The notes under the pieces are model-generated. The model worked only from the letters and a program-made list of their open reading frames with translations. It did no database searches and was not told the DNA's origin. Below, one piece after another: positions 2,505 through 28,400 of a DNA stretch of 64,000 nt. A program made the translations under genes and the position numbers. The stretch's first letter is position 1. Each line of letters starts with the position of its first letter. Origin of the DNA: Devosia sp. Root436 (GTDB taxonomy: Bacteria > Pseudomonadota > Alphaproteobacteria > Rhizobiales > Devosiaceae); NCBI RefSeq assembly GCF_001426345.1, contig NZ_LMEM01000001.1, positions 283,700 through 347,699 on the forward strand, given 5' to 3'.

Positions 2505-2920
2505 TGCTGCGCGCGCCGGCAAAGGGATGGGAAGCGCTGGCGCAATGGGGCGCGGTTCGCATTGAACCGCTCGCCGGTGGCGTCGCCAATGATGTGTGGA
2601 GCGTGCGCACCGGCCGGGAGCTTGCAGTTGCCCGCCTCGGCACGCGGAGCGATGCCGCTCTGGCCTGGGAAGCCGCGCTGCTGCAACATCCCGACCGTGC
2701 CGGTGCCGATCCCGACCTTGGACGGCCGGTTGTTCGTCGATCCGGGCGGCATGGGCGCGGCTCGCCGGGCGTCCGGCCTGTGTTGTCCATGGCAATCCCA
2801 CCGATCCCGGCAATATACGCATGACTGTCGATCGGGTCGCCCTGATCGATTGGGACGAGGCGCATGCCGAGGTGGCGGGACCTCGACCTGGTGTTGTCCG
2901 GATCCATTTTAGTTCCATAA
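2504..2920 (+). pseudogene. Decayed aminoglycoside-phosphotransferase-type kinase remnant
   Basis: Pieces of one small-molecule kinase are split over three frames. The first frame starts at 2504 and holds a nucleotide-binding beginning (IEPLAGGVANDVWSVR, then VARLGTRSDAALAWEAALLQ). A second frame near 2690-2760 continues with PVPIPTLDGRLFVD. A third near 2785-2865 holds the catalytic and metal-binding end, VVHGNPTDPGNIRMT and VALIDWDEAH, which resemble the HGD-x4-N and IDW motifs of the APH/choline kinase fold. In the first motif the usual HGD is HGN. The central part of the kinase is absent. At least two frameshifts plus an internal deletion are needed, so no functional product is expected. 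The original substrate cannot be told. Confidence 0.75.
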
Positions 2921-2931
2921 TATATATTATG
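2916..2931. promoter_or_regulatory. Perfect 16-bp AT-rich palindrome
   Basis: CATAATATATATTATG reads the same on both strands and stands out in this GC-rich region. It lies at the decayed end of the kinase pseudogene and about 98 bp upstream of mazG. The shape is like operators of GntR-type regulators, but it could equally be an orphan site left after a deletion. No regulator gene is nearby. Confidence 0.35.
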
Positions 2932-3028
2932 CGAATCATGGAATGACGGCCGGGTGGCCGCTGTGGCCTGTCCCCCCCGAGCTGCTAAGCTGGGTGTCCA
3001 CACACGATTCCAACCGACCGAGATATCC

Positions 3029-3838
3029 ATGCAGCCATCGCGTGACATTGCCCGCCTGATCGAAATCATGGCGGCCTTGCGCAATCCTGTCGGCGGGTGC
3101 CCTTGGGACCTGGAGCAGGACTTCTCGACCATCCGGCACTATACGATCGAGGAAGCCTATGAAGTCGCCGACGCCATCGAGCGGCAGGACTTTGCCGATC
3201 TGCGCGAAGAGCTCGGCGATCTGCTGCTGCAGCCGATCTATCACGCGCAGATGGCCAGCGAGGCCGGCCATTTCGATATCGGCGACGTGATCTATGCCAT
3301 CACCGACAAACTGATCCGTCGCCATCCGCATGTCTTCGGCGATGTTGATGCCGGCAGTTCGGCCGCATCCGAGCGGCGCTGGGAGGCCATCAAGGCGCAG
3401 GAACGCGCTGCCAAGGCCGCGCGCAAGGGTGATACGACACCCTCCATTCTTGACGACGTCCCCAATGTTCTCCCCGCTTTGGCCCGCGCCGAAAAGCTCA
3501 CCAAGCGCGCCGCAAAGGTCGGCTTCGACTGGCCGGACTTCGCCGCGGTCAAGGCCAAGGTGGATGAAGAGCTCGCCGAAGTCGCCGAAGCGCAGGCCTC
3601 GGGCGATTCGGCTGCCGTGCACGAGGAGATCGGCGATCTGCTGTTTGCCGTCGCCAACCTGGCCCGTCATGCGGGGGTCAATGCCGAGGCGGCATTGCGC
3701 GATGCCAATTTCAAGTTCACCCGGCGCTTCCACCATGTCGAAGCCCGGTGTCGTGAGGAGGGCGTTGACCCGGCCGCCGCGGGTTTGGAGCGGCTGGATG
3801 GCTACTGGAACGAAATCCGCGCTACGGACAAGGGGTAG
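3029..3838 (+). CDS. mazG: Nucleoside triphosphate pyrophosphohydrolase MazG
   Basis: MazG hydrolyses nucleoside triphosphates to monophosphates and pyrophosphate and is thought to clean the nucleotide pool and modulate stress alarmones. The 269-residue protein has the two-domain layout of the long MazG form. The first domain has CPWDLEQDF, the helical EEAYEVADAI and REELGDLLLQ. The second has DEELAEVAEA and HEEIGDLLFAVANLARH, each supplying the EExxE/ExxD metal ligands. An upstream in-frame ATG exists at 2954, but the conserved protein begins at MQPSRDIARLIEIMAALR, so 3029 is chosen. It converges with hflX, the stops being 17 bp apart. Confidence 0.93.
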   Translation: MQPSRDIARLIEIMAALRNPVGGCPWDLEQDFSTIRHYTIEEAYEVADAIERQDFADLREELGDLLLQPIYHAQMASEAGHFDIGDVIYAITDKLIRRHPHVFGDVDAGSSAASERRWEAIKAQERAAKAARKGDTTPSILDDVPNVLPALARAEKLTKRAAKVGFDWPDFAAVKAKVDEELAEVAEAQASGDSAAVHEEIGDLLFAVANLARHAGVNAEAALRDANFKFTRRFHHVEARCREEGVDPAAAGLERLDGYWNEIRATDKG

Positions 3839-18707: not shown

Positions 18708-20147
18708 TCAAATATTCAGCGCCCGCCCATAAGCGTCCAGCACGCTTTCCTTCATCGTCTCGCTCAGCGTCGGATGTGGGAAAATCGTATGGATCAGCTC
18801 TTCCTCGGTTGTTTCGAGGTTCATCGCCACGACGAAACCCTGGATCAGTTCGGTCACCTCGGCACCCACCATATGGGCGCCCAGCAATTCGCCGGTCTTG
18901 GCATCGAAGATGGTCTTGACCAGCCCATCCGGCTCGCCCAGCGCGATGGCCTTGCCATTGCCGACGAACGGGAACCGCCCCACCTTGATCTCGCGCCCGG
19001 CCTCCTTGGCCTTGGCCTCGGTCAGCCCGACGCTGGCCACCTGCGGCTCGCAATAGGTGCAGCCTGGCACCTTGGTCTTGTCGAGGCCATGGACCTTCAT
19101 GCCGGCGATCTTCTCGACAGTGATGACCGCCTCATGCTCGGCCTTGTGCGCCAGCATCGGCGGGCCGGCCACGTCGCCGATGGCCCAGATGCCATCCACA
19201 TTGGTCTTGCCATAGCCATCGATGACGATGGCCCCGCGCTCGGTCTTCACCCCGAGCGTTTCCAGCCCGAGATTTTCGATATTGCACTGTACGCCGACGG
19301 CCGAAATCAGCTTCTCGCCGGAGATTTGCTGCTTGCTGCCATCCTTGAGCTCGACATGCGCCGTCACGCCGTCCTTGGTCTTTTCGACCTTGGCCACCTT
19401 GGCATCGGTCAGGATCTTGATCCCGCGCTTCTCGAGCCGCTTGCGCGCCAGTCCGGCAATCTCGGCATCTTCCACCGGCATGATCTGCGGAAGCAGCTCG
19501 ATAATCGTCACTTCTGCGCCCATCGAGCGGTAGAAGGAGGCAAATTCCACCCCGATGGCGCCAGAGCCCATCACCACCAGCGATTTGGGCATGGCGGCTG
19601 GCTTCATCGCCTCGAAATAGGTCCAGATCTTGTCGCCATCAGGCTCGATGCCCGGCAGCACGCGCGGGCGCGCGCCGGTAGCGATGATGATGTTCTTGGC
19701 CTTGTACGTCCCCTCACCCAGCGGATTTTTCGGCACGGGACCCTGCGGCTGCATGATGGCCTTCTTGGTCGGCGCGACCTTGACCTCGCCGGGCTTTGTG
19801 ATGACCGCCTCGCCCCAGATGATATCGACCTTGTTCTTCTTCATGAGGAACTGGACGCCATTGTTCATCTGCGCCGCGATGGCGCGCGAGCGCTTCACCA
19901 CGCCGTCGATATCGACGCCGAACTTTTCCACGGTCAGCCCATAATCCTTGGCATGGCTCATATGGCCGTAGATTTCGGCCGAGCGCAGCAGCGCCTTGGT
20001 CGGAATGCAGCCCCAGTTGGAGCAGATACCCGCCATATGCTCGCGCTCGATGATGCCCACCTTCATGCCGAGCTGCGCGCCGCGGATGGCGGCAACATAG
20101 CCGCCGGGGCCGGCGCCGATGACGAGAAGGTCGTATTGGTCAGCCAT
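18708..20147 (-). CDS. lpdA: Dihydrolipoyl dehydrogenase (E3)
   Basis: E3 re-oxidises the lipoyl arms of the 2-oxoacid dehydrogenase complexes using FAD and NAD. The 479-residue protein has the FAD loop DLLVIGAGPGGYVAAIRGAQ, the redox disulfide CSNWGC near residue 42, the NAD loop VVMGSGAIGVEFASFYRSMG, the second FAD motif IWAIGDVAGPPMLAHKAEHE, and the catalytic His-Glu pair in HPTLSE near the C-terminus. The CSNWGC motif has Ser where CLNWGC or CVNWGC is common; both cysteines are kept. It belongs to the pdhABC run, separated from pdhC by a GDSL esterase gene. Confidence 0.95.
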   Translation of the reverse strand: MADQYDLLVIGAGPGGYVAAIRGAQLGMKVGIIEREHMAGICSNWGCIPTKALLRSAEIYGHMSHAKDYGLTVEKFGVDIDGVVKRSRAIAAQMNNGVQFLMKKNKVDIIWGEAVITKPGEVKVAPTKKAIMQPQGPVPKNPLGEGTYKAKNIIIATGARPRVLPGIEPDGDKIWTYFEAMKPAAMPKSLVVMGSGAIGVEFASFYRSMGAEVTIIELLPQIMPVEDAEIAGLARKRLEKRGIKILTDAKVAKVEKTKDGVTAHVELKDGSKQQISGEKLISAVGVQCNIENLGLETLGVKTERGAIVIDGYGKTNVDGIWAIGDVAGPPMLAHKAEHEAVITVEKIAGMKVHGLDKTKVPGCTYCEPQVASVGLTEAKAKEAGREIKVGRFPFVGNGKAIALGEPDGLVKTIFDAKTGELLGAHMVGAEVTELIQGFVVAMNLETTEEELIHTIFPHPTLSETMKESVLDAYGRALNI

Positions 20148-20177
20148 TTGGGCCTCCAGAAAATCTATTGAGCCGGC

Positions 20178-20828
20178 TCACAATGCCAGCATGGATTTGA
20201 CGACCGGCACGAGCCCCTCGCCGATCGCCCGCGTATTGGCCGCGTCGAGATGGATGCCGTCGCGCGGATCGGGTTTGGCGACCGTCGAGGCATCGAAGAA
20301 GCCAGTATTCCACTCTTGCGCGCGGCGCGCATAATGTTGGGCCAGTTCGCCGGCCTGCCGCAGCGCGTGGTCGAGCCCGCCGAAATGCCCCATCATGTCC
20401 GAATTGTCGGTGGCACAGACCAGCGGCGGCGCCACCAACAGGATTTGCGGAACAGGTTCATTGAGCATGGCGAAATGCCCGCGGGTGATCTGCACCAACC
20501 GGCGCATGCCATAGGATGCGGTCAGCGCATTGCCGTTGACGGCAGGCTTGAGATCATTGGTGCCCAGCATGATGATGACCAGGTCGAGCGGTGCGTGGCT
20601 GGCCAGCAGTGTCGGCAGAATGCGCGCGCCATTGCGGTCGGCGTCGGCGGTCCAATCGTCGAATGCCGTGGTCCTGCCACCCAGCCCTTCGGCAATCACC
20701 CGCGCCTTGCTGCCCAGCCCCTGTTCAAGCACGCTCGGCCAGCGGTCCTCATAAGCGTGCCGCGGACCGCCGGACTGCGGATTGGACCCGAAGGTCAGGC
20801 TGTCGCCATAGGCCAGGATGGTTTTCAT
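20178..20828 (-). CDS. SGNH/GDSL-family arylesterase-like hydrolase
   Basis: A 216-residue cytoplasmic serine hydrolase with no signal peptide. The block-I motif is YGDSLTFG (Ser9), the Gly and Asn of blocks II and III are in GLGGRTT and MLGTNDL, and the catalytic Asp-His pair is in DGIHLDAA near residue 195. It is close to arylesterase/acyl-CoA-thioesterase-like GDSL proteins of rhizobia. The substrate is unknown. It is inserted between pdhC and lpdA on the same strand, following a family D repeat. Confidence 0.87.
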   Translation of the reverse strand: MKTILAYGDSLTFGSNPQSGGPRHAYEDRWPSVLEQGLGSKARVIAEGLGGRTTAFDDWTADADRNGARILPTLLASHAPLDLVIIMLGTNDLKPAVNGNALTASYGMRRLVQITRGHFAMLNEPVPQILLVAPPLVCATDNSDMMGHFGGLDHALRQAGELAQHYARRAQEWNTGFFDASTVAKPDPRDGIHLDAANTRAIGEGLVPVVKSMLAL

Positions 20829-20840
20829 GCGGCGCGCCTC

Positions 20841-20903
20841 ACAAAGCGTTTCCAGGAAAAGTGGGTACCGGTTTTTCCGGTTCGGAAACGCGACTAAAGA
20901 AAC
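20841..20903. repeat. Rhizobial palindromic repeat (family D)
   Basis: AAGCGTTTCCAGG and its mate CGGAAACGCGAC enclose GTGGGTACCGGTTTTTCCGG. The GTTTCC...GGAAAC arms and the wording AAAAGTGGGTACCGG are typical of short interspersed repeats in rhizobial genomes. It sits between pdhC and the GDSL gene. Confidence 0.7.
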
Positions 20904-20920
20904 CTAGAGCGAAGCTCTAG
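20904..20920 (-). terminator. Hairpin overlapping the pdhC stop codon
   Basis: On the minus strand CTAGAGC-TTC-GCTCTAG is a perfect seven-base stem with a three-base loop, and the pdhC TAG lies inside the stem. The bases that follow (GGTTTCTTTAG) are moderately T-rich. It could attenuate transcription into the esterase and lpd genes or protect the 3' end; it is not a textbook terminator. Confidence 0.35.
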
Positions 20921-22275
20921 GCCAGCATCATTACCGGGTTTTCGATCAGGCCCTTGAACACGCCGAGCACTTCAGCGCCCAACGCACCATCGACGGCGCG
21001 GTGGTCACACGACAGCGTGCAACTCATGAACTGGCCGATCTTGATCTCGCCCTTGTCGGCATAGACCCGTTCCTCACCCACGCCGACCGCCAGGATCGTG
21101 CCATGCGGCGGGTTGATGACAGCGCCGAATTCCTTGATGCCGAACATGCCGAGGTTGGACACCGACGAGGCCCCGCCCTGATATTCATGCGGTGCCAACT
21201 TCTTGCCACGCGCCCGCGCCGCCAGATCCTTGACCTCCTCGGAAATTTCCCGAAGCGTCTTGGTCTCGCAGCTCTTGACGACCGGCGTGAACAGCCCGCC
21301 CGGCACGGCCACCGCAACGGCCACGTCGCTGCGCTTGTGATAGAGGATCGAATCCACCGCCCAGGTCGCGTTGGCCAGCGGTACGCGCTGCAGGGCCACG
21401 GCCCAGGCCTTCATCACGAAATCATTGACCGAGAGCTTGTAGTCCGGCTTGCCGTCCTTGCCCTTGGGGGAAGCAGCGTTGATCTGCTCGCGCGCTGCCA
21501 GCAGCGCATCGATCTTGCAGTCCACCGTCAGGTAGAAATGCGGCACGGTCTGCTTGGATTCGGTGAGGCGCGCCGCCACCACCTTGCGCATGCCATCGTT
21601 GGGCACGAGTTCGTAGCTGCCCTCCGGATAGAGCGCCAGCACCTGCGCCTTGGTCATGCCGCCAGCCGGCGCAGCGCCCGCTGGGGTTGCGGAGGCCACA
21701 GCCTTGAGCGGCGCCTTGCCCGACTTGGCCGCTTCCACATCCGACTTCACCACGCGCCCCTTGGGGCCGGAGCCGGAAATGGCCGACACATCGATCCCGG
21801 CTTCCTTGGCGAGGCGACGGGCCAACGGCGAGGCAAACACCTTGCCGCCATCGGTCCTGGCCGGAGCGCTGGTGCCGGTATTGCTGTTGGCGACCTTGTT
21901 CTTGGCCGCGTTCATGTCGGCGGCGGCCACTTTTTCAAAGTCAGCCCGGGCTGTGTCCGGTTTTGCCGGGCCGTCATTGGCCGGAGTCTTGGGTGCTTCC
22001 GCCTTGGGCGCCGCCACGGCATCCAGGCTTTCGCCCTCCTGCAGCAGCACGGCAATCACCGCATTGACCTTCACGCCCTCGGTGCCTTCGGCGACCATGA
22101 TCCTGCCGATCTTGCCCTCGTCCACGGCCTCGACTTCCATCGTGGCCTTGTCGGTCTCGATCTCGGCGATCACGTCACCCGAGGAGACACTGTCGCCTTC
22201 CTTGACGTGCCACTTGGCAAGCTTGCCCTCTTCCATCGTCGGAGAAAGCGCCGGCATGGTGATATCGATTGGCAT
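20917..22275 (-). CDS. pdhC: Pyruvate dehydrogenase E2, dihydrolipoamide acetyltransferase
   Basis: E2 moves the acetyl group from E1 to CoA and forms the core of the complex. The 452-residue protein has one N-terminal lipoyl domain (lipoyl Lys43 in [11 protein letters not shown]), an Ala/Pro/Lys-rich linker, a peripheral-subunit-binding domain ([20 protein letters not shown] near residue 145), and the C-terminal catalytic domain with the active-site [16 protein letters not shown] single lipoyl domain is usual in alphaproteobacteria. It lies 11 bp after pdhB on the same strand. Confidence 0.96.
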
Positions 22276-22286
22276 CCCGGTTCTCC

Positions 22287-23675
22287 TTACGAGCGGTAGG
22301 TCACGGCGTTGACCGCCGCGATCACTTCATCGACGTTCGGCAGCGCCAGCTTTTCGAGGTTGGCGGCATAGGGCATCGGCACGTCCTTGCCGGTGACACG
22401 GATCACCGGGGCGTCGAGATAGTCGAAGGCCTGTTCCATGACGCGGGCCGAGATTTCGGCGCCGATACCGCCCTGCGGCCAGCCCTCTTCCACCGTCACC
22501 AGCCGGCCGGTCTTCTTGACCGATTCGATCACGGTATCGCTGTCCAGCGGGCGCAGCGTGCGCAGGTCGATCAGTTCCACATCGACCCCGGCGGCAACCA
22601 GCTTCTCGGTGGCCTGCGTCGCATAGCGCATGCCCATCGAGAACGAGACGATGGTCACATCGGCGCCTTTGCGGGCAATGCGCGCCTTGCCGATGGGCAG
22701 CAGGAAATCATCGACCTTGGGCACCAGGCCCGTCGAGCCATAGAGGATTTCGTTTTCGAGGAAGACCACCGGATTGGGCGAGCGAATGGCGGCTTTCAGC
22801 AGGCCCTTGGCGTCGGCGGCGCTGTAGGGCGCAATCACCGTCAGGCCGGGCACATGGCTGTACCAGGCCGAATAATCCTGACTGTGCTGCGCGCCGACGC
22901 GGGCGGCGGCGCCATTGGGGCCGCGGAACACCATCGGCGCCTTCACCTGCCCGCCCGACATATAGAGCTGCTTGGCGGCGGAGTTGATGATCTGGTCGAT
23001 GGCCTGCATGGCAAAGTTCCAGGTCATGAATTCGACGATCGGCTTCAGCCCTGCAAAGGCCGCGCCCACTGCCAGACCGGCAAAGCCATGCTCGGTGATC
23101 GGCGTATCGATGATGCGTTCGGGCCCGAATTCCTGCAGCAGGTTCTGGGTGATCTTGTAGGCGCCTTGGTATTCGGCCACTTCCTCGCCCATCACGAACA
23201 CGTCCTTGTCGCGGCGCAGTTCTTCGGCCATGGCCTCGTTCAGCGCCTGGCGCACGGTCATTTCCACCATCTCGACGCCTTCAGGCAGGTCGGGATCGCT
23301 TTGCGCCTCGAATTTCGGTGCGGCCGGCACGGCGGCGGCGGCCGGCGCGTCTTCCGCGGCCTTTTCGGCAGGCACCACCGGCGCTTCGGCCGGTTCCGGC
23401 GCCGTCTTGGCGGCCGGAGCAGCCTCGGCCGTCTCACCTTCCGCCAGTACGAGTGCGATCGGTGTGTTGACCTTCACGCCCTCGGTGCCTTCCTCGACCA
23501 GCAATTCCTTGACCACGCCTTCATCGACCGATTCGACTTCCATCGTCGCCTTGTCGGTCTCGATCTCGGCCAGCACATCGCCGGATTTGACACTGTCGCC
23601 AACTTTGACCAGCCACTTGCTCAGCTTGCCCTCTTCCATGGTAGGCGACAGCGCGGGCATCAGGATTTGGGGCAT
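22287..23675 (-). CDS. pdhB: Pyruvate dehydrogenase E1 beta subunit with N-terminal lipoyl domain
   Basis: With PdhA it decarboxylates pyruvate. The 462-residue protein has an extra lipoyl domain at the N-terminus (lipoyl Lys42 in [11 protein letters not shown]), an Ala/Pro/Glu-rich linker to about residue 115, and then the transketolase-type E1 beta fold: [48 protein letters not shown], and a C-terminal domain with [16 protein letters not shown]. The lipoyl-E1 beta fusion is a known alphaproteobacterial trait. The start [13 protein letters not shown] at 23675 follows one base after the small membrane protein gene. Confidence 0.96.
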
Positions 23676-23676
23676 A

Positions 23677-24075
23677 TCAGCTCTCCAGCATTTTTGGTGC
23701 GCCGGGCATGGTGGCCACGCGGCGAAGGTCGGTATTGAAGGCAAATTCGGCGGGAATGATGCGCGGATCGCTGATGCGTTCAGCGCTGGCGCTGGCCGGA
23801 GCCGGCGCCTGGTTGATTGCCCATCCGCTCAGGATCAGCCCCAGCAGCAGGAAGACCACGAAGGCGATGACAGCGCGCTTGTAGATATTGAGCGGCTGGG
23901 CGGCTGCCGGGCCGGCCTTCTGCTCAAGCTGGCGGAATTTCCACCAGCCCAGCGGCATGAAGCCGGCAAGGTTCTCGCTGACAGGTGCTGCGCGCACCAT
24001 CGCTATGGCCTGCATGACCGCCAGGACCAGCGCGAGAACCGCGAAGAGCAGGATGACACCGAGCAGGATGCTCAT
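23677..24075 (-). CDS. Small two-helix membrane protein embedded in the pdh operon, unknown function
   Basis: A 132-residue protein I do not recognise. A first hydrophobic helix spans about residues 2-28 ([20 protein letters not shown]). A central polar part of about 40 residues has [14 protein letters not shown], and a second helix lies near residues 68-88 ([19 protein letters not shown]). A C-terminal tail, predicted on the same side as the N-terminus if both helices cross, is Pro/Ala/Ser-rich and has no cysteine. It is tightly packed: 8 bp after pdhA and one base before pdhB, so it must be translated with them. A link between the complex and the membrane is possible but only a guess. Confidence 0.75.
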
Positions 24076-24083
24076 CTATCGCC

Positions 24084-25115
24084 TCAGGCGCTGATGGTGA
24101 TGTCGGTCCAGAGTTCGGCGGCATCCGGCTCGGGATCGTTGGTGGCAAAATCGGCGGCTTCGGTGACGATGGCGCGAATGTCGTTCTCGATGGCCTTGAG
24201 CGATTCCTCGGTCTGGGCGCCCGAAGCGATCAGCCTTGCCTTGACCTGCTCGATGGCGTCGCGCTCCTGCCGGTACTTGGTCACTTCGTCCTTGGAGCGG
24301 TACTTCGCCGGGTCGGACATGGAGTGGCCACGATAGCGGTAGGTCAGCATTTCGAGGATGAACGGGCCCTTGCCCGAACGGGCATGCTCGATGGCGCGCC
24401 TGGCCGCGTCATAGACCATTCGCACGTCCATGCCGTCGACCTGCTCGCCCGGAATGTCGAACGAGGCGCCGCGCATGGAGAAATCGGTGGTCGCCGCGGC
24501 GCGCTCGATGGACGTGCCCATGGCGTATTTGTTGTTTTCGATGATGAAGACGACCGGCAGCTTCCACAGCTTGGCCATGTTGAAGGTCTCGTAAACCTGG
24601 CCCTGGTTGGCCGCGCCGTCGCCGAAATAGGCGATGGAGACCGAGCCATCGCCCTTGTATTTGGCGGCGAAGGCCAGCCCTGCCCCCAGCGAAACCTGGG
24701 CGCCGACAATGCCGTTGCCGCCATAGAATTTGTGCTCGTTGCTGAACATGTGCATCGAGCCGCCCTTGCCGCCGCTGAGGCCGCCCTGGCGGCCGGTCAA
24801 CTCGGCCATGACGCCCTTGGGGTCGAGGCCCATGACAAGCATGTGGCCATGGTCGCGATAGCCGGTGATCTGGGCATCCTTGCCCTTCTCACTGGCCATT
24901 GTGATGCCGGTGACCACCGCCTCCTGGCCGATATAAAGGTGGCAGAAGCCGCCGATCAGGCCCATGCCGTACATCTGGCCGGCCTTTTCCTCGAAACGCC
25001 GGATCAGCAGCATTTCGCGATAGGCTTCGAGGTCTTGTTCCGCCGTGAATTGGGGTACGTTGGCAAGTTTTTGGGCTTGCGTCTTGGCCTTGGTGGCCAC
25101 AGCCTTACGCGCCAT
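24084..25115 (-). CDS. pdhA: Pyruvate dehydrogenase E1 alpha subunit
   Basis: The thiamine-diphosphate subunit of the E1 component. The 343-residue protein shows YREMLLIRRFEEKAGQMYGM, the TPP-binding motif GDGAANQGQVYETFNMAKLW with IENNKYAMGTS about 30 residues on, and the phosphorylation-loop-type sequence YRYRGHSMSDPAKYRSKDE. The start MARKAVATKAK (25115) is chosen over an upstream in-frame ATG because the conserved protein begins there with a short Lys/Ala-rich lead. It heads the pdhA-membrane protein-pdhB-pdhC group, about 115 bp downstream of the ftsB-like gene. Confidence 0.96.
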   Translation of the reverse strand: MARKAVATKAKTQAQKLANVPQFTAEQDLEAYREMLLIRRFEEKAGQMYGMGLIGGFCHLYIGQEAVVTGITMASEKGKDAQITGYRDHGHMLVMGLDPKGVMAELTGRQGGLSGGKGGSMHMFSNEHKFYGGNGIVGAQVSLGAGLAFAAKYKGDGSVSIAYFGDGAANQGQVYETFNMAKLWKLPVVFIIENNKYAMGTSIERAAATTDFSMRGASFDIPGEQVDGMDVRMVYDAARRAIEHARSGKGPFILEMLTYRYRGHSMSDPAKYRSKDEVTKYRQERDAIEQVKARLIASGAQTEESLKAIENDIRAIVTEAADFATNDPEPDAAELWTDITISA

Positions 25116-25229
25116 TGGAACGCTCCGCATCGAAATGGATTTGCCGCTTGGCCCGATCTGGCCACACTTGCGCATCATAGTGCAAGCAACGGACGGAAAG
25201 CAATGCTCGCCGCGAACTGCGGATTTAAG

Positions 25230-25628
25230 CTAGAGCGTTGAATCTGCTTGGATAAGCTGAGTTAACTCATCCGTGGCTAATTCTTCAAATTTACCGGAAA
25301 GTGGTTTACCTGAATTGGGGTCGACCATGACGATTATATCGTCCGCATTGGCCATGTTCAGCAGGGCCCGCGCGCGCTCGGTGACGATATCGGGGTCCAG
25401 CCGCCGCGTATCCATCAGCGTGGCGCGGTGCCGATAGACGTCGATCTCTGCCTGTAGCGCCGCCGACCGGGACTTGAGCTGGTCGATATCGAGCAGGATT
25501 TGCGTCCGGTTCTCGATGCCGAACTGTCCGCTGATGGCGGAATAACCGAGATAGGCCTGGAACCCCAGCAACGCCACGGTCAACGCCAGCGGGCGCCAGA
25601 GTGCAGGACGTTTGAGACGGGTGGGCAT
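25230..25628 (-). CDS. ftsB: FtsB/DivIC-like septum formation initiator protein
   Basis: A 132-residue bitopic membrane protein with one helix near residues 12-33 (ALTVALLGFQAYLGYSAISG). A coiled-coil stretch from about residue 40 to 75 (LLDIDQLKSRSAALQAEIDV) and an ARALLNMANADDIIV segment follow, as in FtsB. FtsB joins FtsL and FtsQ in the division complex. Position just upstream of pdhA is the usual alphaproteobacterial location (often after eno). Short divergent proteins like this are hard to name surely, hence the moderate confidence. Confidence 0.8.
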   Translation of the reverse strand: MPTRLKRPALWRPLALTVALLGFQAYLGYSAISGQFGIENRTQILLDIDQLKSRSAALQAEIDVYRHRATLMDTRRLDPDIVTERARALLNMANADDIIVMVDPNSGKPLSGKFEELATDELTQLIQADSTL

Positions 25629-25693
25629 GGGCTAACCGGAACTGAACGCGCCCAATATGCCTGACAAGGGTTTAACGGGTGGTTGCCATCCGG

Positions 25694-25821
25694 GCACGAG
25701 GGCGTGGTTCGAGGCTCGCGAAGAGCTCGCGCCTCACCAGAGGGCTACTGGACACTGAGCTAATAGTAGCCCTCATGGTGAGGCGGGAGCGTGGCGACCC
25801 TCGAACCACGAGGGCGTGGCA
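25694..25821. repeat. Nested palindromic repeat family B, copy 1 (inverted orientation)
   Basis: Outer arms around GTGGTTCGAGG and CCTCGAACCACG enclose inner arms CTCACCAGAGGGCTACT and AGTAGCCCTCATGGTGAG around a short loop. Between outer and inner arms lie unpaired modules: GCTCGCGAAGAGCTCGCG on the left and CGGGAGCGTGGCGACC on the right. Compared with copies 2 and 4 the element is in the reverse orientation. It lies between the Dabb gene and the ftsB-like gene. Confidence 0.85.
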
Positions 25822-25827
25822 CAGAAC

Positions 25828-26118
25828 TCACAACGGCGCGTAATCAATCTCCAGAAACCGCGCCACTTCTGGGATCCAGCGGTCCCGCACGAACGCCACA
25901 TGGTCCTTGTGGTCATTATACCCCGCATAAGCCGCCTGGTCGGCAAACTCCATCGAGAAGCCGAAGGTATAGTCGTTCTTCGCACTCACCTGCCGCAGTT
26001 GCTCGAATTTCTCGACGCCGGGAATTGCCGCCAGCACCCTGGAGTCGCGCAGGAAAGCCCCCTCCTCCGCCGATCCGGCCGCATGCCGGAGCGAAAATAC
26101 CACGGTATGGCGGATCAT
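25828..26118 (-). CDS. Dabb (stress-responsive alpha/beta barrel) family protein
   Basis: A 96-residue dimeric ferredoxin-like barrel protein. It opens with [12 protein letters not shown], the Dabb signature in which the His of the strand is conserved, followed by ALAAIPGVEKFEQLRQV-like spacing and the second strand TFGFSMEFADQAAYAGY, ending VARFLEIDYAPL. Family members range from stress proteins to polyketide cyclases, so the role is unknown. The ATG overlaps the maeB stop by four bases, so the two are co-translated. Confidence 0.88.
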   Translation of the reverse strand: MIRHTVVFSLRHAAGSAEEGAFLRDSRVLAAIPGVEKFEQLRQVSAKNDYTFGFSMEFADQAAYAGYNDHKDHVAFVRDRWIPEVARFLEIDYAPL

Positions 26119-28400
26119 GCCTCGGCCCCGATGGCTTCGGTGGCGGCAATGGCCGCCATGTTGACGATGCCGCGGCTGGTGGTCGACGGCGCCAGGATGT
26201 GGGCCGGCGCGCGCGGTCCCATCAGGATGGGGCCGACGGCCAGGGCGTTGTTCATTTCCTTGAGCAGTGTCATCGAGAGGTTGGCAGCGTCGAGATTGGG
26301 GAAGATCAGCAGGTTGGCTTCGCCGCCCAGCACGCTATCGGGAATGTAGCGCTCCCGCAGCTCCTGGTTCAGCGCCAGGTCGCCCTGCATTTCGCCTTCC
26401 ACGATCATGTCGGGAGCGATGGCTTTGAGCTTGTTGTAGGCCTCGCGCATCTTGAAGGCGCTGTCGCCGTCGCGCGAGCCGAAATTGGAATAGCTCAACA
26501 GCGCCACCTTGGCCTCGATATTGAAGCGCTTGAGGTGGTTGCGCGCCTGCAATGCAATGCCGACGATCTCGTCGGTCGTCGGATCCTGGTTTACATAGGT
26601 ATCGGCCAGGAAAAACGCGCCGCGCGGCATGATCAGCATGGAGAGCGCCGAGACGTCGGTCACCCCGTCCTGCAGGCCGATGATCGAGCGGATGTCGCGG
26701 ACATGCTTGATATAACGGCCCTGGAGCCCGCAGATCATCGCATCGGCCTCGCCGCGCTTTACGGCCAGAGCGCTGATGACCGTAGTATTGGTGCGCACCA
26801 CCTGCCGCGCCGTGTCCGGCGTCACGCCGTTGCGTCCCACCAGCGAGTGGAAGAGACTGACATAGTCGCGGTAGCGCGGATCGTCCTCGGGGTTCACCAC
26901 CTCGAAATCGACGCCGGGCCGCAGGCTCAGGCCGAAGCGCTCGATGCGGGCCTCGATGACCGAAGGGCGGCCGATCAGGATCGGCCGGGCGATGCGCTCT
27001 TCGAGCAGCACCTGGGTCGCGCGCAGCACGCGCTCGTCCTCGCCATCGGCAAAGGCGATCCGCTTCTGCTGCCCCTGCGCCCGCTCGATGATCGGCTTCA
27101 TTACCAGCCCGGAGCGGAACACGAAGCGGTTGAGACTGTCCATATAGGCGTCCCAGTCGGCGATCGGATTCTTGGCCACGCCTGATTCCATTGCCGCCAG
27201 CGCCACGGCCGGCGCAATGCGCAGCATCAGCCGCTGGTCGAACGGGTTGGGAATGATGTGGTCGGGACCGAACACGGCCGGCGCGCCCGAGGGCGACACT
27301 TCCAGCCCCGGTTCATGCGCCAGTTTGGCGATGGCGCGCACCGCCGCCAGCTTCATTTCCTCGTTGATGGTGGTCGCGCCCACGTCAAGCGCGCCGCGGA
27401 AGATGAAAGGAAAGCAGAGGACGTTGTTGACCTGGTTGGGATAGTCGCTCCGCCCGGTGCAGACCATGGCGTCGGGCCGGGTTTCCTTGGCCAGCTCCGG
27501 GGTAATTTCCGGATTCGGATTGGCCAGGGCCAGGATCAGCGGCTTGGGCGCCATCTTCGCCAGCATTTCAGGCTTCAGCGCACCCGCCGCCGACAGCCCA
27601 AGAAAAATATCGGCGCCCTCGATCACTTCGGCCAGCGTCGTCGCGTCGCTGGTGCGGCGGAACTGGCCGCGCCACTTGTCGTTGACGTCGTTGCGCTTGT
27701 GGGTGACGAGGCCATCCTTGTCGGCGACCCAGATGTTTTCGTATTTCGCACCGAGCGCGACGAGAACATTCAGGCAGGCAATGGCCGCGGCCCCTGCCCC
27801 GGAGGCACAAATCTTGACCTCGTCGATCTTCTTGCCCTTGAGTTCCAGCCCGTTGAGCACGGCGGCGCCGACGATGATAGCCGTGCCATGCTGGTCGTCG
27901 TGGAACACCGGGATCGGCATGCGCTCGCGCAGGGTTTCCTCTATCTCGAAGCAGTCGGGCGCGCGGATATCCTCGAGGTTGATGCCGCCAAAGGTCGGCC
28001 AGAGCGGGGCTACCGCGTCGATGAATTTCTGCGGCTCGATCTCGTCGATCTCGAGATCGAACACGTCGATGCCGGCGAATTTCTTGAACAGGACCGCCTT
28101 GCCTTCCATCACCGGCTTGCTGGCCAGCGCTCCGATATTGCCCAGGCCGAGCACGGCCGTTCCGTTGGAAATGACGGCGACCAGGTTTTGTCGGGACGTG
28201 TATCTGGCGACCGTCTCCGGATGCTCCGCGATTTCCTCGCAGGGCGCCGCGACGCCGGGGGAATAGGCCAGTGCCAGGTCGCGCTGGTTACCCAGCGGCT
28301 TGGTGGGCTGGATTTCGAGCTTGCCGGGCTTGGGGAACTCGTGGAAGTGCAGCGCGGCTTCGCGCAGGGCTTTCCGCTGTTCAGTCAAATCGGTCGTCAC
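26115..28400 (-). CDS. maeB: NADP-dependent malic enzyme with phosphotransacetylase-like C-terminal domain
   Basis: Malic enzyme converts malate to pyruvate with NADPH formation. The 761-residue protein is the long MaeB type. A malic enzyme domain (about 1-420) has [28 protein letters not shown], the metal ligands in [23 protein letters not shown]-type sequence (HDDQHGTA) and the nucleotide loop [17 protein letters not shown]-like domain (about 430-761) has [32 protein letters not shown]-type blocks and [13 protein letters not shown]. The PTA half is usually non-catalytic and regulatory. It supplies pyruvate near the pdh genes. Confidence 0.96.

Follow-up and report, generated by a model that had tools for sequence, protein, structure and literature searches.

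The locus studied here raises the question of why a gene for a small membrane protein lies between the two genes of the E1 component of pyruvate dehydrogenase (PDH). In the window, that is, the whole 64,000-nucleotide stretch of Devosia sp. Root436 DNA that was analyzed, this open reading frame (ORF) is separated from pdhA by 8 nt (24076-24083; the pdhA stop is at 24084) and from the pdhB start codon (ATG, 23673-23675) by a single nucleotide, 23676. An earlier note on this DNA had described a 132-residue frame with 8 and 1 spacer bases, two hydrophobic helices, and a loop, and all of these features were confirmed. The genes concerned are listed below.

24084..25178, minus strand: pdhA, E1 alpha (Pfam E1_dh, E 2e-105)
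23677..24075, minus strand: ORF of the two-helix membrane protein, ATG to TGA, 132 aa
22287..23675, minus strand: pdhB, E1 beta, with an N-terminal lipoyl domain and two transketolase domains (Pfam)
20917..22275, minus strand: E2 acetyltransferase gene, aceF/pdhC (Pfam)
20178..20828, minus strand: GDSL/SGNH hydrolase gene, between E2 and lpd (Pfam)
18708..20147, minus strand: gene that we take, from reading its translation, to be dihydrolipoamide dehydrogenase (lpd)

The enzymes, their order, and the lipoyl domain on E1 beta are those of the standard pdhA-pdhB-E2 operon of the order, from which the window locus differs in having a membrane protein gene in addition, placed between pdhA and pdhB. 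A DivIC-family gene (Pfam) lies upstream of pdhA. The GDSL/SGNH hydrolase gene also follows E2 in most of the longer loci of the genus. On the plus strand, a sub-threshold match to the SAH riboswitch was seen at 25784-25848 (25.9 bits vs a gathering score of 37). A promoter and terminator scan was uninformative.

Predicted structure and family assignment

Hydropathy of the window protein delineates two hydrophobic stretches, residues 1-33 and 61-91, and the 11-residue loop motif pointed out in the earlier note is present. AlphaFold models of low confidence (mean pLDDT 64-65, with 71-76 at residues 1-20 in the region of helix 1) place helices at residues 2-29, 47-54, and 56-88. The protein can be divided into the following regions.

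23989..24072, minus strand: helix 1, residues 2-29, predicted transmembrane (AlphaFold models and hydropathy)
23935..23949, minus strand: GWWKF motif at residues 43-47, within the loop that carries positive charge and is predicted to be cytoplasmic
23812..23910, minus strand: helix 2, residues 56-88, including IYKRAVIAF (alignment, hydropathy, and models)
23731..23811, minus strand: Ala/Pro-rich variable linker, residues 89-115 (linker dN/dS 0.36; alignments)

Residues W44, W45, F47, G55, Y65, and R67 are among those that are invariant in 45 aligned rows from the genus. The net charge of the loop, counted on these genus rows only, is +1 to +6 in all 45, and the tail is neutral on average. According to the positive-inside rule, positively charged loops are cytoplasmic; the positive loop of this protein is therefore placed in the cytoplasm, which would leave both ends outside. 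The alignments also indicate that the Ala/Pro-rich linker is missing from homologues in other families. A sequence search of the PDB returned no relative of solved structure (best E 0.54), and a Foldseek search of the PDB with the weak model gave no fold match (best E 2.8).

The description of the protein as unrecognised was borne out: it matches no Pfam or NCBIfam family above the curated cut-off, and PHROGs and PADLOC gave nothing convincing. For the other members, the best Pfam E value was 0.0013 among 25 of the 27 families listed. The weak best Pfam match of the window protein is PF01292, cytochrome b561 (E 0.003, 17.7 bits vs a cut-off of 30.1), and a match to this family at E up to 1 is found in 15 of 49 members. 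Cytochrome b561 has four helices, in which histidines ligate the heme. Histidine is absent from the helix regions in all genus rows (0/45), and membership was rejected on account of the score below the cut-off, the lack of helix histidines, and the presence of two helices, not four. A phage or defence origin was also set aside, as PHROGs searches with five proteins were uninformative (best E 0.005 and 0.023) and no PADLOC match was obtained; likewise, plasmid carriage received no PLSDB match.

Selection on the hairpin gene

A homologue at E <= 0.001 was found in 60 of 151 genomes (the window's own and 150 relatives), in single copy in each. The window's genus accounts for 58 of these carriers, out of 75 genomes, and the further two are from sister genera. 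Over core residues 2-88, the median pN is 0.11 and the median pS 0.45, with a dN/dS of ~0.16, as calculated from the 72 of 990 pairs with a core identity of 0.75-0.97. Purifying selection acts on the protein core, and a chance ORF is ruled out by this ratio together with the homologues in 60 genomes. Altered copies occur as well: in a genome of 2.0 Mb (G053, locus L026), the hairpin gene contains an in-frame TAG and the pdhB leader element described below is still present, and in locus L057 the gene is only 86 aa long and has no tail.

Position at the pdhA/pdhB junction across the order

The earlier note stated that the E1 alpha and beta genes are normally adjacent, and the alphaproteobacterial order Hyphomicrobiales agrees with this, the pdhA-pdhB gap being 0-108 nt in 71 of 78 sampled loci. 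The sample comprised 60 pdhA places, picked for genus spread from the matches listed, and 18 of 30 automatic loci; the 12 not used represent the own genome and its genus. The seven remaining loci were four from the third family introduced below, two with long gaps in which no ORF of 60 aa lies on the same strand, and one with a 360-aa ORF.

Within the genus, pdhB lies downstream of the hairpin gene in 58 of 58 cases and pdhA upstream in all 57 testable ones, L010 being at a contig end; the ORF and pdhB are 0-1 nt apart in most members. Three further genera of the family have shorter proteins in the same slot (L059, L060, and L073), and divergent homologues outside the genus have 92-99 residues. 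A second family yielded eight clear homologues in 69 genomes (E up to 2.4e-13), each of them between pdhA and pdhB (8/8). One genus of a third family carries a homologue in 7 of 12 genomes, also invariably in the slot (7/7), and one third-family locus (L176/L259) has an in-frame stop in the hairpin gene. Altogether, every full-length homologue located in this order is at the pdhA/pdhB junction (76/76), and genomes with a slot homologue have a single match throughout at the thresholds used. This count leaves aside L099 and L100, which are weak partial matches in long frames with no adjoining pdh, and five weak second-family matches, partial and in long frames, with no pdh in the three examined.

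Homologues from different families are ~24-42% identical. In the two other families, they stop 15-30 nt short of pdhB and have no tail, which makes the core hairpin of ~86-99 residues the conserved unit. Profile comparison connects the second family with the genus (99.1%) and the third with the second (97.0%, with 0/60 block shuffles reaching the score). Compared directly, the genus and the third family gave only 17.5% (0/60 shuffles), and the second family bridges them. The values for L060 and L073 were 95.0% and 97.7%, respectively. For another slot protein, L087, profile comparison found no homology (shuffles 10/60 and 22/60). A two-helix hairpin family, homologous by sequence or profile, occupies the pdhA/pdhB slot.

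Outside the order, profiles run against 385 and 367 genomes of the class (overlapping samples) revealed one full-length relative, in G656 (E 3.6e-5 and 1.3e-6), where it adjoins glmM and thiD. The other matches, at E 7.6e-4 to 0.01, were weak and mostly partial and were set aside. In profile comparison, the G656 protein gave 91.0% and 78.5%, with 0/60 shuffles. A clear homologue is present in 6 of 75 genomes of its family, glmM/thiD adjoin it in two of the six, and no pdh gene was found within ~3.2 kb in any of the six.

The lock to pdh that had been claimed for this gene held in this order, the distribution being the opposite of one in which homologues lie mostly outside pdh operons. A position kept so strictly in three families speaks for a connection with PDH. 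That homologues are always found at pdh holds for the 76 located in this order and fails for the remote relative in another order, whose position away from pdh suggests that the hairpin family is wider and probably extends beyond pdh.

Absence of the gene and other genes at the junction

No match was found in 17 genomes of the genus. In 13 of these, including L084, pdhA and pdhB are 63-103 nt apart; one is truncated at the end of a contig, and three have no detected pdhB. The pdhB match of L084 (G025) is split, one part covering residues 1-109 and the other, a few bases away, residues 111-462; no hairpin ORF was found in this locus. Parsimony on a quick pdhB tree, which left out 7 short rows and the loci without a usable pdhB, requires at least 7 state changes between nine ORF-less genomes and the carriers, and we read these changes as losses of the hairpin gene. 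This repeated absence where pdhA and pdhB stay indicates that E1 works without the hairpin protein, and it argues for an accessory, non-essential role. No residue of PdhA or PdhB tracks the presence of the hairpin gene convincingly (442 tests, 66 rows); the best, PdhB column 28, has V in 5 of 9 ORF-less rows vs 0 of 55 others, with a p value of 1.7e-5 that is uncorrected for ancestry.

The junction also accommodates other genes. In L023 and L025, pdhA and the hairpin gene are separated by a 129-aa ORF (MTGPVDIVESINGVP... in L023) that matches nothing in Pfam. An ORF in a similar position was observed in L019. In L057, an ORF of 284 aa (2846-3700, minus strand), which by reading only we take to be alpha/beta-hydrolase-like, is located between the hairpin gene and pdhB, and the pdhB leader element is missing. 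Further examples at the junction are a 126-aa ORF in L082, from another genus, presumably glyoxalase-like (again by reading only), and a 360-aa ORF in L190.

The protein tail and the pdhB leader

In the window, the end of the hairpin ORF coincides with a conserved part of the pdhB leader.

23676..23724, minus strand: conserved nucleotide element of the pdhB leader, CGCCG-CGT-GGC-CACCAT-GCC-CGGCG, then the Shine-Dalgarno site
23681..23686, minus strand: GGAGAG, resembling a Shine-Dalgarno site for pdhB, 5 nt upstream of the ATG

The element overlaps the last 16 codons of the ORF, stop included. At residues 116-132, pN is 0.11 and pS is 0.15 vs 0.45 in the core, a threefold lower level of synonymous change. 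The codons themselves are conserved: CCC and GAG each occur in 45 of 45 rows at their columns, and at three more columns the Arg (41), Gly (42), and Val (34) residues are each encoded by a single codon. The leader consensus, CGCCG-N3-GGC-loop-GCC-CGGCG followed by CTGGAGAGCTGAT-ATG, is based on an alignment of 56 distinct leaders (without L057, L059, L060, L065, L066, L072, and L084). Most ORF carriers have a loop of 3 or 6 nt between the arms, and ORF-less genomes one of 6-8 nt; the carriers that depart from the consensus are L038/L042, L044, L047, and L058.

The element is retained in nine ORF-less genomes of the genus (L061-L064 and L067-L071), a set that excludes L065, L066, and L072, which have neither the hairpin ORF nor the element, and L084, in which the element is altered. 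Among the nine, identity is 0.79 in the element, 0.43 in the remainder of the gap, and 0.56 at pdhB fourfold sites; that of the element exceeds that of the fourfold sites in 36 of 36 pairs. Short frames of 18-85 codons span the element in ORF-less genomes; their frame, start, and end vary by genome, and in L064 and L068 they still end in LES-stop. Because the element is kept without the ORF and without a common reading frame, the tail RRVA-MPGA-LES is largely pdhB leader. A pure protein motif was rejected in view of the nucleotide constraint and of this persistence. The tight junction and the conserved tail reflect, in part, the pdhB leader element, not a protein partner.

The GC-rich arms of the element could form a hairpin, but the covariation expected of one is not convincing. 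In the aligned leaders, 93.7% of the cells are paired (43/500 shuffles are as high), one of eight pairs has changed on both sides (reached by 72/500 shuffles), and the covariation score, which is not a probability, is 0.030 vs 0.025 (10/500 shuffles). Matched arm changes, CGTCC/GGACG, were noted by eye in L058 and L084; they represent one lineage, and L084 is outside the counted alignment. RNAalifold preferred other pairs over the arm hairpin in the leaders, and the window's own leader folds no better than shuffles (z -0.52). Rfam 15, run over 20000-26200 at E up to 5, gave nothing at the gathering score and no minus-strand match on the element. The element pattern has three matches in the own genome, one of them at pdhB. 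A regulon of the element was set aside, as a reversed control pattern also matches across 61 genomes; in the same scan, a few other pattern strings were each shared by two or three genomes of the genus, so that a second site may exist.

Proposed role and alternative explanations

PDH is commonly depicted as a soluble complex. We propose that the gene may encode a small inner-membrane hairpin of an unnamed family that acts as a PDH E1 accessory at the pdhA/pdhB junction, a proposal whose chances we consider evenly balanced. The hairpin protein would be made from the same mRNA as E1, and its synthesis in step with E1 is plausible. Its cytoplasmic loop, carrying W-W-K/R-F and Y-K-R, might dock on E1 or the PDH complex and act on or modulate it at the membrane; a membrane tether or regulator of PDH, the role raised in the earlier note, is a hypothesis. 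In the genus, the ORF extends into the pdhB leader, so that its last 16 codons also serve as a nucleotide element, presumably cis-acting, which, with its two GC-rich arms and the pdhB Shine-Dalgarno site, probably sets pdhB translation. More tentatively, the hairpin could be a dedicated inner-membrane anchor or regulator of E1 in at least three families of one order, its C-terminal codons merged with the E1-beta leader element in one genus, and thereby tied to E1 beta through both protein and RNA; this we consider possible at best.

Small additional proteins acting on the E1 module (PdhA-PdhB) are known. According to excerpts of the report on PdhI (YneR) of Bacillus subtilis, this E1 inhibitor binds E1 where the active site opens, with inhibition seen in growth tests (PMC10090944). 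The window protein differs in being a membrane hairpin of two helices, with its gene between pdhA and pdhB. A literature search covering titles and abstract openings among the matches listed, a scope outside which most subscription journals fall, returned no membrane protein between pdhA and pdhB.

A different explanation, possible though doubtful in our judgment, is that the membrane protein has an unrelated job and has been inherited along in a tolerant operon junction. The other genes that the junction hosts in places, the frequent absence of the hairpin gene where pdh is kept, and the remote relative at glmM/thiD would all fit this explanation. However, homologues that share as little as ~24-42% identity across families keep the slot in 76 of 76 cases, with a single match each. 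The junction of 0-1 nt in most genus members, and the conserved element and Shine-Dalgarno site inside the tail, could instead suggest a leader ORF, the translation of which sets the E1 alpha:beta ratio through coupling while the protein matters little. To this we assign only a small probability, since selection acts on the core at the level of the protein (dN/dS 0.16), the tail-less homologues of two other families stop 15-30 nt before pdhB, and the element persists without the ORF.

It is also conceivable, but highly improbable, that the protein belongs to a transporter of pyruvate or a metabolite, or to a membrane redox partner, that feeds PDH. A membrane hairpin in a pyruvate-using operon and the sub-threshold cytochrome b561 match (E 0.003) would be in line with such a function; against it, the protein has two helices only, its helix regions lack histidine in 45 of 45 rows, and the window protein belongs to no transporter family above the cut-off.

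Implications

The locus carries a warning that a conserved protein tail can be a nucleotide signal, and careless deletion of the hairpin gene would harm pdhB. A conserved membrane protein whose gene is embedded in the E1 pair would suggest that PDH is placed at the membrane, or controlled there, throughout a bacterial lineage.
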